Part shown: positions 34,812 through 40,696 of the stretch, piece after piece
Position numbering within the stretch: position 1 is the first letter of the stretch
Layout of the letters: each line of letters begins with the position of its first letter
Assembly (NCBI GenBank): GCA_017640505.1
Contig: JAEPQO010000004.1
Span: 186,001-250,000, forward strand
Direction of reading: 5' to 3'
DNA length: 64,000 bases
Source of the DNA: Rhodospirillales bacterium
GTDB lineage: Bacteria > Pseudomonadota > Alphaproteobacteria > Rhodospirillales > Casp-alpha2
Notes under the pieces: generated by a model
What the model saw: the letters and a program-made list of their open reading frames with translations, nothing else
Database searches by the model: none
What the model was told of the DNA's origin: nothing
Made by a program: the position numbers and the translations under genes

Positions 34812-34979
34812 CGGGCTCCGTTCCGCTCGTCAAACGTTGTGTTGCATGCAAGACTGCGTGCGACATTACCCGACCCGATAGGGGACACACAAACCCGGGT
34901 CGTTATCGCTGTCGACAAGAAAATAGGGAAGGAAGGTGCCGCTTCGACGGCGGCGCTGGAACAGGGAGGAAGAGAACAA

Positions 34980-35855
34980 ATGCCATACGCCGAACGCGAC
35001 GGGGTGAAGATCTATTACGAGGAAACGGGCGAAGGCACGCCGATCCTGTTCCTGCACGAATATGGCGGCGACCGGCGCAGCTGGGAGCCGCAAGTGCGGC
35101 ATTTCTCGCGCGATCACCGCTGCATCGTCATGTGCGCGCGCGGCTATCCGCCCTCCGACGTGCCGGAAGACGAGAGCCTTTACGGTCAGGACCATGCCAA
35201 CGCGGATGCCATCGCGGTGCTGGATGCCGCCGGTGTCGACACGGCCATCGTCATCGGTCTTTCCATGGGCGGCTATACCGGTCTCCGCCTCGCTATCCAT
35301 TATCCGGACCGGGTCATGGCGCTCGTGGCCGCGTCGGCGGGTGCGGGTTCGCTACGTGAAGGGTTCCAGGTCTTCCGCGACGAAGCCTTCGCGCGGTCCG
35401 AGGAATACCTTGAAGCGGGCAGGATGCTGGCCGAGCCGTTCGCCAATGGCCCGACGCGCACGCAGCTGAAGCGGAAGGATATCCGCGGCTGGGAGGAATT
35501 CCGTGATCAGCTCGCCGAACATCCGGCCATCGGTGCCGCCTATACGCTGCGCCACGTGCAGGGCGGGCGGCCGTCGCTTTACGATTTCGAGGCCGAGTTC
35601 AACGCCTGCACCGTACCGACGCTGTTGCTGGTCGGCGACGAGGACGATGTTTGTCTTGATGTGAACGTGTGGCTGAAGCGCGCCATGCCGACGTCGGGGC
35701 TCCGCGTGTTCGCGAAGTCGGGGCACCTGATCAACCTGGAAGACCCGGCAGCCTTCAACGCCGAGATCGCCGATTTCCTGCGAGCCTACTTTACCGGTGC
35801 GTGGCCGGAACGCGAACCGTTCGACGGCAACTACGCGGGCATCGGGCCGCGCTGA
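34980..35855 (+). CDS. Alpha/beta hydrolase
   Basis: A 291-residue alpha/beta hydrolase. The nucleophile elbow is GLSMGGYTG (S95), the acid is in LLLVGDEDD, and the catalytic His is in KSGHLINLEDP. The N-terminal MPYAERDGVKIYYEETGEG matches epoxide hydrolase/3-oxoadipate enol-lactonase-like members. ACAGGGAGGAAGAG precedes the ATG at 34980. It lies 66 bp before an acyl-CoA dehydrogenase gene in the same direction. It may cleave a thioester or lactone; the substrate is unknown. Confidence 0.85.
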   Translation: MPYAERDGVKIYYEETGEGTPILFLHEYGGDRRSWEPQVRHFSRDHRCIVMCARGYPPSDVPEDESLYGQDHANADAIAVLDAAGVDTAIVIGLSMGGYTGLRLAIHYPDRVMALVAASAGAGSLREGFQVFRDEAFARSEEYLEAGRMLAEPFANGPTRTQLKRKDIRGWEEFRDQLAEHPAIGAAYTLRHVQGGRPSLYDFEAEFNACTVPTLLLVGDEDDVCLDVNVWLKRAMPTSGLRVFAKSGHLINLEDPAAFNAEIADFLRAYFTGAWPEREPFDGNYAGIGPR

Positions 35856-35921: not shown

Positions 35922-37133
35922 ATGGACTTCACATTATCACCCGAGGTCGAGGAAACACGCCTCGCCATCCGCAAGTTCGTCGAGGAACGCATCATGCCGC
36001 TGGAAGAGGACCCGGCGAGCTATGACGATCACGAGAACATCGACCTGGATCTTTTGAAACAGGTGCAGTCGGAGGCCCGCGACCGCGGCCTCTGGTGTCT
36101 GTCGATGCCCAAGGAACGCGGCGGGCGCGGTTTCGATACCGTCGGCATGGCGGCGTGTTACGAGGAAATGAACCGTTCGATCTTCGGGCCCGTGTGTTTC
36201 AATGCGGCAGCCCCCGACGACGGCAACATGTACGTGCTCAACAAGGTCGCGACCGACGAGCAGAAAGAGAAATGGCTGCAGCCGATCATCGACGGCAAGG
36301 TCCGGTCCTCCATCGTCATGACCGAACCGGCGCCGGGCGCGGGTTCGGACCCGGGCGGCATGATGCTGACCCGCGCCGAGAAGAAAGGCGACAAGTGGGT
36401 CGTGCAGGGCCGGAAATGGTTCATCACCGGGGCCGGCGTCGCCGATCATTTCATCCTGCTGGCGCGCACGTCGGACGAGCCGCGCCGCAACCTGACCGCG
36501 TTCCTGTTCCACAAGGATACACCCGGTTGGGAGATCGAGCGCCGCATCCCGATCATGGGCCCGGAAGAACACGGCGGGCACTGCGAGCTGATGTTCAACG
36601 GCATGGAAATCCCCGACGAGAACCGCCTGATGGGCGTGGGTGAAGGCATGAAGTGCGTGCAGATCCGGCTTGGCACCGCGCGCCTGACGCACTGCATGCG
36701 CTGGCTCGGCCTCGCCAAGCGCTCGCTCGAGATCGCCAACGAATACATCTCCAACCGCGATGCCTTCGGCTCCAAGCTGTCGAAACGCGAAAGCGTGCAG
36801 TTGCTGTTGGGCGACGCGGCGATGGATATCGAGATCGGACGCCTGTTGACGATGAAGGCCGCCTGGGCCTTGGATCAGGGCTCGCGGGCGCGCAAGGAGG
36901 TCTCCATGGCCAAGGTTGCGGTCGCCGACGTGCTGTTCAAGGCCGTCGACACGGCGATCCAGCTCAACGGCGCACGCGGCTATTCCAAGGACACCGTGCT
37001 TGAGTGGATCTACCGCTATGCCCGGCAGGCGAAGCTCGTCGACGGCGCGTCGGAAGTCCACAAGATGGTGCTCGCCGGCGCACTCGCCGAGAACGGCATG
37101 GACTTCTGGAGCTGGGGAAACCCTGAGCAGTGA
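35922..37133 (+). CDS. Acyl-CoA dehydrogenase
   Basis: A 403-residue flavoprotein of the acyl-CoA dehydrogenase family. Characteristic stretches are VMTEPAPGAGSDP (FAD/substrate loop), WFITGAGVADHF, RLTHCMRWLG and IQLNGARGYSKDTVLEWIYRYAR at the C-terminal end. The pattern fits the ACAD10/11-like branch, often paired with an APH-type kinase gene, exactly as here (4-bp overlap with the next gene). It introduces a 2,3-double bond in acyl-CoA. AAGAGGAAGAC precedes the ATG. Confidence 0.92.
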   Translation: MDFTLSPEVEETRLAIRKFVEERIMPLEEDPASYDDHENIDLDLLKQVQSEARDRGLWCLSMPKERGGRGFDTVGMAACYEEMNRSIFGPVCFNAAAPDDGNMYVLNKVATDEQKEKWLQPIIDGKVRSSIVMTEPAPGAGSDPGGMMLTRAEKKGDKWVVQGRKWFITGAGVADHFILLARTSDEPRRNLTAFLFHKDTPGWEIERRIPIMGPEEHGGHCELMFNGMEIPDENRLMGVGEGMKCVQIRLGTARLTHCMRWLGLAKRSLEIANEYISNRDAFGSKLSKRESVQLLLGDAAMDIEIGRLLTMKAAWALDQGSRARKEVSMAKVAVADVLFKAVDTAIQLNGARGYSKDTVLEWIYRYARQAKLVDGASEVHKMVLAGALAENGMDFWSWGNPEQ

Positions 37134-38482
37134 GCGGGCGCAACGACGACGCCGTCACCAACATGGACCGGGACGCCATCAAGCGGCTCGAGGTCTGGCT
37201 CGCACGCCAGTCCGGCGGCCGCGCACAGGTGCGCGACCTGAAGCAGCTGTCCGGTGGCGCCATTCAGGAAAACTGGGCACTGTCGCTGGACCTGGAAGGC
37301 GGTGACTGGCCGGGATCACACGACCTGGTGCTCCGCAAGGATGCGCCTTCGAACGTCGCCGTTTCACACGGCCGCGCCGAGGAGTTCGCGATCCTCAAAC
37401 ATGCCCATGACGCCGGCGCCACCGTGCCGGTGCCGTGCGTTCTGTGCGAGGACAACGACGTGCTGGGGACGCCTTTTTTCATCATGCACCGCGCCGAAGG
37501 CACGGCGGCCGGGCACAAGCTCGTCAAGATGGACGCCAACGACGCGCTGGCCGAGGATCTTGGCCGCAACCTCGCCCGCATCCACACCATCAAGGACACG
37601 CCCGATCTTGCCTTCGTCGCCAAGCCGGACGGCCCCGCCGCGATGTCGTCGGTCAACGAGTACCGCCGCCATCTTGACGACCTGCCGGGATCGCATCCGG
37701 CACTCGAATGGGGACTGGCGTGGCTGGAGGCGAACGCGCCATCCGGCGATGAGATTGTCTTCAGTCACCGCGATTACCGCACCGGCAACTACATGGTCAC
37801 CGACGGCAAGCTGACGGCGATTCTGGATTGGGAGTTCGCCGGCTGGTCCGATCCGATGGAGGACATCGGCTGGCTGACGGCCAAGTGCTGGCGCTTCGGC
37901 GCCAACGACCGGGTATGCGGCGGCGTCGGTTCGCTGGACGCACTGATCCGTGGATATGAGGCCGAAAGCGGGCGCACCGTCGACCGCCCGATGGTCGCAT
38001 ATTGGCAGGTGATGGCGACCATGCGCTGGGCGGTGATTGCGCTGCAGCAGGCCGACCGCTTCGTCACCGGCGGCGAGCGCAACCTGGAACTCGCGCTGAC
38101 GGCGCACATCGTACCGGAACTGGAAATGCAGATCCTGGACGCCACGGCACCCGTCGACCCGGCGCCGTTGCCCGACGGCGTTCAGCCCGTCCGCCCCGAC
38201 CCGTCGCTCGACGCGCTGCTCGGCATTGCCCGGGATATTGTCAGAAACGATCTCGCCAGCGTGCTCGACGGCGATGCGCGCTACAAGGCCCTGATGGCGG
38301 CCAATGCGCTCGGTATCGTTGAGCGGCAGATTACGGGGCTTTCCGTCGGCGCCGACGACGAGGGGCGCAAGGAAATGGCGGCGCGCATCCGGGACGGCGA
38401 CGGTACGGTGAAAGACCACGCGCAACTGCTGGCCGAGGTCCGCGCCACGCTCAAGGAGAGCAATCCGCGCGCGCTCGGCTAA
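37130..38482 (+). CDS. APH-type phosphotransferase of the ACAD10/11 context
   Basis: A 450-residue protein. Residues about 20-290 form an aminoglycoside-phosphotransferase/choline-kinase fold, with the catalytic loop FSHRDYRTGNYMV (Asp and Asn) and the metal site AILDWEFAGWSDPMED. The C-terminal 120 residues are a helical domain like DUF6285. In animals the same kinase is fused to acyl-CoA dehydrogenase (ACAD10/11), where it phosphorylates 4-hydroxyacyl-CoAs so they can enter beta-oxidation. The GTG start overlaps the dehydrogenase stop (GTGA), so the pair here may do the same. Function is inferred from that analogy. Confidence 0.83.
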   Translation: MSGRNDDAVTNMDRDAIKRLEVWLARQSGGRAQVRDLKQLSGGAIQENWALSLDLEGGDWPGSHDLVLRKDAPSNVAVSHGRAEEFAILKHAHDAGATVPVPCVLCEDNDVLGTPFFIMHRAEGTAAGHKLVKMDANDALAEDLGRNLARIHTIKDTPDLAFVAKPDGPAAMSSVNEYRRHLDDLPGSHPALEWGLAWLEANAPSGDEIVFSHRDYRTGNYMVTDGKLTAILDWEFAGWSDPMEDIGWLTAKCWRFGANDRVCGGVGSLDALIRGYEAESGRTVDRPMVAYWQVMATMRWAVIALQQADRFVTGGERNLELALTAHIVPELEMQILDATAPVDPAPLPDGVQPVRPDPSLDALLGIARDIVRNDLASVLDGDARYKALMAANALGIVERQITGLSVGADDEGRKEMAARIRDGDGTVKDHAQLLAEVRATLKESNPRALG

Positions 38483-38496
38483 ACCGCATTCCGCAC

Positions 38497-38702
38497 AAAA
38501 AAAACCCCCCGGGGACGAACCCCGGGGGCGAGTTTTAAACAGGGAGGCTTCACGTCTGGGAGACGCGAGGGGCCGGAGACCGGTCCCTCTATTCCGGACA
38601 GGGCGTCCGGAAACTGGGTGGAACCCTTTGGAGATACTGCGCTTTCAGCGCGATCATCCGGTTCCAAATTCCGTCTTCGTTGCTGCGTTGCAACATCGAA
38701 TG
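38497..38702 (-). ncRNA. Candidate structured small RNA, about 205 nt
   Basis: Read on the minus strand, this stretch folds into a chain of stems: GTTGC/GCAAC, GGAACC...GGTTCC enclosing GCGCT-GAA-AGCGC, TTCCGGAC/GTCCGGAA (38592-38612), GAGGGACCGG/CCGGCCCCTC (38567-38589), CGTCT/AGACG (38553-38565), and finally the 9-bp GC stem followed by T8 (38497-38504), a perfect intrinsic terminator. A CCTCCC segment lies unpaired between the last two stems and is complementary to Shine-Dalgarno sequences, as in known alphaproteobacterial regulatory RNAs. Upstream is TATATAAAA as a -10 candidate, and the preceding lysR gene has its own terminator. The open frame here looks meaningless. I do not recognise the RNA family. 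Confidence 0.7.
38505..38536 (+). terminator. Terminator after the APH-type kinase gene (bidirectional)
   Basis: CCCCCGGGG at 38506-38514 and CCCCGGGGG at 38520-38528 form a 9-bp GC stem with a 5-base loop, 23 bp after the kinase stop. On the plus strand a short TTTT follows. On the minus strand the same stem is followed by eight T, so it also ends the small RNA read from the right. Confidence 0.85.
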
Positions 38703-38707
38703 CACGT

Positions 38708-38738
38708 TTTATATAGGCAGGCTGTGTTGGCACACCAG
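38708..38738 (-). promoter_or_regulatory. Possible promoter of the small RNA
   Basis: On the minus strand TATATAAAA (38715-38707) gives a good -10 box (TATAAA, 5 of 6) shortly before the predicted RNA start near 38702. A -35 box at the right distance is weak (CTGGTG), so an activator or another sigma factor might be needed. Confidence 0.45.
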
Positions 38739-38740
38739 AG

Positions 38741-38780
38741 AAAAACGGGAAATGCAGCCATGCATTCAGCGCATGGCTGC
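38741..38780 (-). terminator. Terminator of the lysR gene
   Basis: GCAGCCATGC (38754-38763) and GCATGGCTGC (38771-38780) form a perfect 10-bp stem with a 7-base loop, 11 bp after the lysR stop on the minus strand. It is followed by ATTTCCCGTTTTT. It separates lysR from the small RNA gene. Confidence 0.8.
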
Positions 38781-38791
38781 GTGGGCCGCCG

Positions 38792-39694
38792 CTATCGCTT
38801 GATGGGCGCCAGTTTTTCCACGATGAAGTCGCGGAAGGCCACGATTCTGGCGGAATCCCTCAGCTCTTCCGGATAGACGAAATACATGTTCAATTCCGGC
38901 CCCTGCAATTCCGGCAGGACTTCAACGAGACTCCCCAGTTCCCGGCCCATGTATTCGGGCAGGGCACCGAGGCCGAGCCCACTTTGCACTGCACGCAAGA
39001 TCCCGTAGATCGAGTTGACGCGCAGCACGGGCTTACGCGGAATACCGTCCCGGGCATGTTCGGTCAGCAACCAGTTGAGGTTCGCCGCCGGCGGGCGGGC
39101 ATCTTCGCCGTAAACGACGATCCGGTGCTTATCCAGATCGCGTGCGTTCTTGGGCATGCCGTTCTGCTGCAGATACTCCGGCGCCGCATAGACCTTGTAA
39201 TGCAGCGTCATCAGGTGGCGCTGCACCAGATCGGGCTGCGTCGGCGGCGTCAGGCGAATGGCGACGTCGGCCTGGCGCATGGAAAGATCGAGCTCGGTAT
39301 CGGCAAGGACCAGCGAGACCTCGATCTCCGGGAAGCGGTTGACGAACTCCTTCATGCGCGACGCCAGGAACACCGAGCCAAAGGCGACGGTCGACGAGAT
39401 CTTCAACGCGCCCTGCGGGCGTTCCTTGTTTTCCGCCAGTTGCGTCTGTACGCGGGCCAACTGCGCGAACACGTTGTGCGCGGTGTCAAAAAGGGTTTCG
39501 CCCTGTTCCGTCAGGATCAAGCCGCGCGCGTGGCGGTGAAACAGCGGTGTGCCCAGGCTCTGTTCGAGCGCGGATACCTGGCGGCTGACCGCCGACTGGC
39601 TCAGATTGAGCGTTTCACCGGCATGCGTGAAACTGCCGGCTTCGGCGACGGCGTGAAAGACCCTGAGTTTGTCCCAATCGATCGGCACCGCCAC
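38792..39694 (-). CDS. LysR-family transcriptional regulator
   Basis: A 300-residue LysR regulator. The N-terminal helix-turn-helix is GSFTHAGETLNLSQSAVSRQV, and the two-lobed effector domain begins near residue 95 (GALKISSTVAFGS). The group with NLNWLLTE and the VNSIYGILRAVQSGLGLGALP stretch is close to regulators found next to trxB in Rhodospirillales. GTG at 39694 lies right at AAAGGGG; a second GTG at 39688 has better spacing, so the protein may be two residues shorter. It lies 33 bp after trxB on the same strand, so it may share the trxB promoter. Its target genes are unknown. Confidence 0.88.
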   Translation of the reverse strand: MAVPIDWDKLRVFHAVAEAGSFTHAGETLNLSQSAVSRQVSALEQSLGTPLFHRHARGLILTEQGETLFDTAHNVFAQLARVQTQLAENKERPQGALKISSTVAFGSVFLASRMKEFVNRFPEIEVSLVLADTELDLSMRQADVAIRLTPPTQPDLVQRHLMTLHYKVYAAPEYLQQNGMPKNARDLDKHRIVVYGEDARPPAANLNWLLTEHARDGIPRKPVLRVNSIYGILRAVQSGLGLGALPEYMGRELGSLVEVLPELQGPELNMYFVYPEELRDSARIVAFRDFIVEKLAPIKR

Positions 39695-39727: not shown

Positions 39728-40696
39728 TTATTCGGCGGCCGCCGCTTCCTGGTTCTCGTGCTCGGCCAGGAACTTCTCAGCCTCGAGCGCCGCCATGCAG
39801 CCGGTCCCGGCGGCGGTCACCGCCTGACGGTACACGCGGTCCTGAACGTCGCCGGCGGCGTACACGCCTTCGACGCTGGTCTGCGCCGTCCCCGGCTGGG
39901 TTTTGATGTAGTTGTCTTCCCACATGTCGAGCTGGCCGGCGAACAGGTTCGTGTTCGGGTCATGGCCGATGGCGATGAAGACTCCGTCGACGGCAATATC
40001 CTGCGTATCGCCGGACTTGGTATTCTTGAGACGTGCGCCGGTGACCCCCTTGCCGCCCTGCTCGCCCAGAATTTCTTCAAGCGTGTGGTCCCAGATTACC
40101 TCGATCTTCTCGTTCCGGAACAGGCGTTCCTGCATGATCTTTTCCGCGCGCAGCTCGTCGCGGCGATGCACCAGATAGACCTTGGTCGCATGGTTGGTCA
40201 GGTAAAGCGCCTCTTCGACCGCTGTGTTGCCGCCGCCGATCACGGCGACCTCCTTGCCGCGGTAGAAGAACCCGTCACAGGTCGCGCACGCGGAAACGCC
40301 GAAGCCCATGAACTTCTGTTCGCTTTCCAGACCGAGCCAGCGCGCGCTGGCGCCCGTCGCGATGATCAGAGTTTCGCCGAAATACTCGGCGCCGGAATCG
40401 CCGACGGCACGGAACGGCCGTTTCGACAGATCGACCTCGACGATGGTGTCCTCGATCATCTCGGTGCCGACGTGCTTGGCCTGCTCGTACATCTGCTCCA
40501 TCAGCCACGGCCCCTGGATGACCTCGGCGAAACCGGGGTAATTCTCGACCTCGGTGGTGATGGTGAGCTGTCCGCCCGGCTGGATACCCCGGATCAGAAC
40601 CGGTTCCAGGCTCGCCCGCGCCGCATAGATCGCGGCCGTATACCCGGCGGCGCCGGAACCGATGATCAGGACTTTGGTGTGGCGGGGCTCGGACAT
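39728..40696 (-). CDS. trxB: Thioredoxin-disulfide reductase
   Basis: A 322-residue flavoprotein with FAD-binding [16 protein letters not shown] at the N-terminus, the redox pair C137-A-T-C140 in [18 protein letters not shown]-binding [13 protein letters not shown], and the C-terminal [23 protein letters not shown]. It passes electrons from NADPH to thioredoxin. AGGAGAAAACC precedes the ATG. It is divergent from the Lrp-type regulator, with a 177-bp gap that contains a strong palindrome. Confidence 0.96.

Follow-up and report, generated by a model that had tools for sequence, protein, structure and literature searches.

The position of this locus raises the question of what lies between a lysR gene and an APH gene that converge on it. 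The window analyzed here is a stretch of 64,000 nucleotides from a Rhodospirillales bacterium, and Pfam identifies the neighbors of the element as lysR, trxB, and APH. The gap holds a structured RNA of about 206 nt on the minus strand (about 38702-38497). The likely answer, with a probability of roughly 0.8, is that it is a trans-acting RNA of a new family, activated by a LysR-type regulator and blocking Shine-Dalgarno sites in an AbcR-like manner. An earlier note had read it as a structured small RNA not described before, in which an anti-Shine-Dalgarno motif is exposed, and this reading is supported by a conserved core, covariation, a promoter, a terminator, and the absence of coding. The features of the locus are as follows.

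39728-40696, minus strand: trxB, thioredoxin reductase (Pfam Pyr_redox_2), upstream of lysR
38792-39694, minus strand: lysR-type regulator, positional counterpart of LsrB/VtlR (Pfam HTH_1 and LysR_substrate; orthologue search; synteny)
38760-38774, minus strand: probable LysR-type (LsrB/VtlR-like) operator ATGC-N7-GCAT (T-N11-A), centered at about -65 (94 of 147 loci)
38735-38737, minus strand: weak -35-like TGG, kept at +37 to +39 from the start of the operator box
38710-38715, minus strand: -10 element TATATA (TAnnnT clusters at +59 to +65 from the box across loci)
38497-38702, minus strand: gene for the small RNA, with a transcript predicted at about 206 nt (fold z -4.2; promoter spacing; terminator)
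38677-38699, minus strand: 5' hairpin or palindrome GTTGCAACGCAGCAAC (TGC-N3-GCA recurs in predicted RNAs)
38619-38666, minus strand: genus-specific hairpin GGAACC...GGUUCC (fold; no matches to the 5' half outside the genus)
38592-38612, minus strand: hairpin UUUCCGGAC...GUCCGGAAA (fold)
38567-38589, minus strand: hairpin B, abutting the core on its 5' side (helix recurrence and covariation)
38552-38566, minus strand: core hairpin GCGUCU-CCC-AGACGU with an exposed CCC loop (inner stem invariant; loop unpaired)
38538-38551, minus strand: largely single-stranded anti-Shine-Dalgarno stretch GAAGCCUCCCUGUU (near-invariant; CCUCCC unpaired)
38497-38528, minus strand: intrinsic terminator, 9 bp and T8 (sequence; terminator-type helices in 136 of 147 loci)

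The element is more stably folded than shuffled sequence. Its minimum free energy is -96.8 kcal/mol, whereas shuffled versions average -76.5 (z -4.19, equaled by none of 200 shuffles), and the fold has six stem-loops, counting the terminator. The terminator stem is a perfect 9-bp CCCCCGGGG/CCCCGGGGG helix (38506-38528) with T8 at 38504-38497, and CCUCCC at 38547-38542 is single-stranded, with an unpaired probability of about 0.8-0.95. The minus-strand -10 sequence (CC)TATATA at 38715-38710 gives a predicted start near 38702; transcription itself is inferred, as there are no transcript data. The earlier note had claimed a minus-strand structured segment of about 205 nt, its own -10 box, a perfect 9-bp GC terminator with eight T, and an unpaired CCUCCC, and all of these held. 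So did its statements that no Rfam family is recognizable in the RNA and that it is not 6S: a scan against Rfam 15 found no family at gathering score for the element, and 6S RNA (RF00013) was found not here but at G000:C6:516269-516428 (65 bits).

The 3' half of the element, consisting of GTCTCCCAGACGTGAAGCCTCCCTGTT and the terminator, is near-invariant and is present in 105 of 385 alphaproteobacterial genomes. The search pattern derived from this 3' module was GTCTNCNAGACGTNANGCCTCCC, and the reversed pattern used as a control had no matches in the same 385 genomes. Positions left free in the pattern or lying outside it (TGTT, 3' of the core) are 88-100% conserved too. The core pattern is absent from about 260 sampled Pseudomonadota outside Alphaproteobacteria, and in a phylum-wide sample (n=399) it was found in 11, every one alphaproteobacterial. 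A scan of named genomes gave at least 119 core contigs, which fit Alphaproteobacteria wherever the class is named. Carriers include Azospirillum, Magnetospirillum, Thalassospira, Kiloniella, Nisaea, Roseomonas and other Acetobacteraceae, Reyranella, Minwuia, Inquilinus, Caedibacter, and numerous MAGs. Among mobile elements, the plasmid search found a core copy on one Tistrella megaplasmid, and the phage search did not find the core. A text search of the literature with the core sequence returned only unrelated human and mouse work, and the core is missing from the main text of an Azospirillum RNA-seq paper. Some genomes (L129, Thalassospira australica, at 1728-2123; G257; G046) have the core in two to four copies, and the Thalassospira copies are in tandem, recalling the arrangement of AbcR1/2. 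The core also occurs in L148, L169, and L192, MAGs labeled 'Rhizobium sp. Q54', labels that may be wrong.

Outside the genus the RNA is conserved only in part. Full-length matches are confined to same-genus genomes, and beyond them only the 3' module still matches; the claim of five or six hairpins held within the genus, and the parts conserved outside it are the 3' module and the 5' palindrome only. Helices, operators, and terminators were counted in a set of 147 dereplicated loci. A helix of at least 5 bp abuts the core on its 5' side in 113 of these, compared to 21-28 after shuffling. The earlier note had proposed comparing the stems among relatives, and by this comparison hairpin B covaries, with 28 double-change cells (a count reached in 0 of 500 shuffles), while the core is near-invariant. 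Covariation was tallied for hairpin B and the core alone, because MAFFT misregisters stems across the terminator. The inner stem of the core is invariant and therefore provides no covariation evidence; its invariance hints at a constraint beyond Shine-Dalgarno pairing. Terminator-type helices are found in 136 of the loci, and their stem sequences differ. Across loci the predicted RNAs are 141 nt long in the median, and their median fold z is -5.5 (60 tested). Of 91 predicted RNAs, 44 have TGC-N3-GCA in their first 70 nt, compared to 1-5 when shuffled, and this conserved palindrome begins 5-14 nt past the predicted start. In the window the palindrome, GTTGC..GCAGCAAC (38677-38699), likewise lies just past the predicted start; it is the sequence that is kept and not pairing alone, and the palindrome might serve as a further site for protein binding, a second one.

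The order trxB-lysR-sRNA is conserved, a point that the earlier note had missed along with the apparent operator and the correspondence to the rhizobial AbcR1 locus. An orthologue search with the window LysR found a counterpart in 178 of 289 genomes of the class. The trxB gene precedes lysR, in the same orientation, at 188 of 218 loci; at the remainder it was not found in the fetched stretch, and none of the loci contradicts the order. In the opposite direction, 87 of the 119 core contigs, which were found without using lysR, carry a lysR counterpart on the same strand, no more than 3 kb upstream; for most of the other 32, too little upstream sequence is available. In a lysR-anchored search, a covariance model of the hairpin and core matches most of 89 loci, and matches extend to about 50% LysR identity. 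The median distance from the lysR stop to the core is 215 nt. The downstream neighbors of the RNA differ between genomes. In the window, the APH-type protein (37130-38482) has a C-terminal DUF6285 stretch by Pfam.

The sequence upstream of the RNA resembles a LysR-regulated promoter. The earlier note had described a 10-bp hairpin as a terminator of lysR. The hairpin, GCAGCCATGC/GCATGGCTGC, is real, but it contains ATGC-N7-GCAT and more plausibly represents a LysR-type operator, because its sequence, its 7-nt spacer, and its distance to the promoter are conserved. This reading is likely, although there are no binding data, and the hairpin may also assist lysR termination. ATGC-N7-GCAT is found at 94 of the 147 loci, where 0.75 are expected from shuffles; the strict pattern is not matched in the other 53. 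Spacers of 5, 6, 8, and 9 are at or near background, and the five central bases are free. Since TGG is at +37 and TAnnnT at +59 to +65, the operator is centered about 65 bp before the start, and activating LysR-type sites are usually centered at about this distance. In Sinorhizobium meliloti, AbcR1 requires LsrB, and the LsrB consensus GCAT-N3-TG-N3-T is at -61 to -49 of the abcR1 promoter (PabcR1). The extended half-site GCATGGCTGCATT of the window, at 38763-38751, spans -61 to -49 relative to the predicted start, to within one or two positions, so that the operator consensus and its promoter position are shared with AbcR1.

The locus and operator are common with the AbcR locus, while the RNA family differs. 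The ar15/AbcR family has been described from Rhizobiaceae and Brucellaceae, and the gene order in Agrobacterium is trxB-vtlR-abcR1-abcR2. The order and strand of trxB, lysR, and the small RNA are the same in the window. In Rhizobiaceae-like genomes (L247, L248), tandem ar15 RNAs with scores of 77-127 bits are found downstream of a lysR counterpart of about 50% identity. The ar15 covariance model (RF02345) has no match in the window genome (E<=10) and none in the window at a lax threshold; the 77-127 bits of L247 and L248 served as positive controls. An ar15 scan of the 289 class genomes also gave no match, but just 12 candidates per genome were scored and absence is not claimed. The window RNA resembles AbcR in its exposed anti-Shine-Dalgarno sites, its 3' terminator, and its inferred targets, likely uptake genes. 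It differs in that it is usually single, its core and hairpins are different, and its regulator lacks cysteines. AbcR has an exposed UCCUCCC-type loop; the window RNA has something analogous but not identical, in that its CCUCCC strand and its CCC loop are unpaired, but the motif reads GCCUCCC and lies outside the 5' hairpin loop. AbcR also binds Hfq and regulates mRNAs of ABC transporters; on the side of the window RNA there is Shine-Dalgarno complementarity with a modest enrichment of solute-binding proteins. The window LysR has zero cysteines and the ar15-linked LysR proteins have 3-4; S. meliloti LsrB has been described as sensing via two cysteines. The signal of the window LysR thus probably differs from that of LsrB, and it is possible either that thiol sensing was lost or that the ancestral signal was different.

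Other alphaproteobacterial RNAs share some of these properties. SorY (RF02651) and SorX (RF02784) of Rhodobacter have a hairpin, a ACCUCCCUGUU-like single strand, and a terminator. At a lax threshold the 3' part of the element matches SorX (27.2 bits, gathering 46.6) and anti-hemB, and weak SorX matches of 27-37 bits extend to relatives; SorY is not among the window matches at that threshold. Membership in SorX/SorY was rejected on the sub-gathering SorX score and the missing SorY match. In L251, which is Rhodobacteraceae-like by inference, a SorY-like RNA is at the lysR locus (62 bits, below threshold), and the covariance model of the present family (R1) gives it 13 bits (E 0.0045). Common descent of the window RNA with the AbcR and SorY-like RNAs is possible but has not been shown. 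CcsR/cuckoo RNAs are alphaproteobacterial small RNAs with anti-Shine-Dalgarno-type motifs like the window RNA. Those of Rhodobacter are co-transcribed with a DUF1127 gene, and RNase E cuts them out of a precursor; membership was rejected, as no DUF1127 gene adjoins (the neighbors are lysR, trxB, and APH). NfeR1 (ar14) is an LsrB-activated, multi-hairpin RNA with anti-Shine-Dalgarno motifs, but each of its three hairpins has a CCUCCUCCC motif. The window RNA does not show this pattern and has no ar14 match, and this family was rejected as well. MmgR/SisA (ar8, suhB RF00519) has a similar single-stranded CCUCCCU ahead of the terminator, together with the 10-mer UUUCCUCCCU and an FGase neighbor, both absent here; it was rejected since the core is GAAGCCUCCCUGUU and not UUUCCUCCCU and there is no suhB match in the window. 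Overall the family is uncatalogued in Rfam 15 and in the literature searched, and it is AbcR-like without being a member of ar15.

The complementarity of the RNA to ribosome-binding sites is evident in its own genome, while transporter targets are inferred. The 8-base complement CAGGGAGG occurs close before ATG at 7 sites, compared to 2 for the reversed pattern. The CAGGGAGG-N-ATG sites include a TRAP transporter gene and an SBP_bac_5 gene, which encodes a family-5 solute-binding protein and matches at nine bases. The Shine-Dalgarno sequence of an alpha/beta-hydrolase gene (34962-34982), the first gene of the convergent ACAD/APH operon, is also CAGGGAGG, a perfect complement of the core. One own-genome covariance match, L256, proved to be the reverse strand of a solute-binding-protein ribosome-binding site and prompted the target test. 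In related genome G022, 5 of 12 ORFs of at least 80 aa with CAGGGAGG encode solute-binding proteins, compared to 1 of 17 with AAAGGAGG; one ORF of the control set was listed twice, and all control proteins bar one were classified by eye. This enrichment is modest and only suggestive, as the sample is small and any Shine-Dalgarno sequence resembles the seed. A second own-genome match, L254, is inside a CDS and was rejected as spurious. The same genome has a second candidate anti-Shine-Dalgarno RNA at G000:C6:502703-502751 (L255, 1501-1549), in which ...GACGCCTCCCTGTAAAACTCGCC is followed by a terminator; the covariance model gives it 14.7 bits (E 0.09), and it matches no Rfam family.

In the proposed mechanism, the adjacent LysR-type regulator, the LsrB/VtlR counterpart, would bind ATGC-N7-GCAT at about -65 and activate a promoter whose -35 is weak, giving an RNA of about 206 nt that stops at its own terminator. 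The CCC loop of the core hairpin and GAAGCCUCCCUGUU, the two sites exposed in this RNA, would base-pair with ribosome-binding sites, CAGGGAGGC for example, and prevent translation, probably with a preference for solute-uptake mRNAs and perhaps with the help of Hfq. This action would resemble that of AbcR1 at the corresponding rhizobial locus. Regulator binding, Hfq binding, and repression are all inferred.

Three other explanations can be considered. The functional RNA could be only the 3' module of about 90 nt, released by RNase E from lysR read-through or a precursor, as for SorX or CcsR. The conservation of the 3' module but not the 5' half beyond the genus, the weak SorX matches of the window and relatives, the cutting of CcsR RNAs from a precursor, and the discussion of SorX in the literature among 3'-end-derived small RNAs are consistent with this. 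However, a promoter with fixed operator, -35, and -10 spacing sits between lysR and the RNA, and the 5' palindrome is conserved 5-14 nt past the predicted start, making this alternative unlikely. Less plausible still, the element could be mainly a terminator or attenuator without trans activity, as its position between convergent genes and its strong terminal hairpin would allow; but the near-invariant unpaired core, the hairpin covariation, and the operator persist while the downstream neighbors change. An encoded small protein is all but excluded: an 84-aa open frame (38479-38733, minus strand) overlaps the element, but no coding signature, for which the earlier note had proposed looking, was found in relatives, frames are lost even within the genus, lengths differ by non-multiples of three, and the constraint acts on RNA structure.

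The LysR-activated, AbcR-like RNA remains the preferred reading, and a bolder, less probable version of it can be entertained. The LysR-sRNA unit may be ancestral to Alphaproteobacteria, with the RNA remodeled into ar15 in Rhizobiaceae, a SorY-like RNA in the Rhodobacteraceae-like genome, and the window family, and the frozen core of about 30 nt, stem included, may do more than occlude Shine-Dalgarno sites, for instance if a partner RNA or a protein dedicated to it recognizes the core. AbcR has so far been studied as a virulence and symbiosis RNA of rhizobia and Brucella. If the present reading is true, a circuit of regulator and RNA would be general across Alphaproteobacteria, and a family outside Rfam would serve Azospirillum, Magnetospirillum, Thalassospira, Acetobacteraceae, and many uncultured lineages. 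Orphan trxB-linked LysR genes would become testable circuits, and the locus would be an example of a single site and operator with changing RNA families. The frozen core stem raises a question that Shine-Dalgarno pairing alone does not answer.
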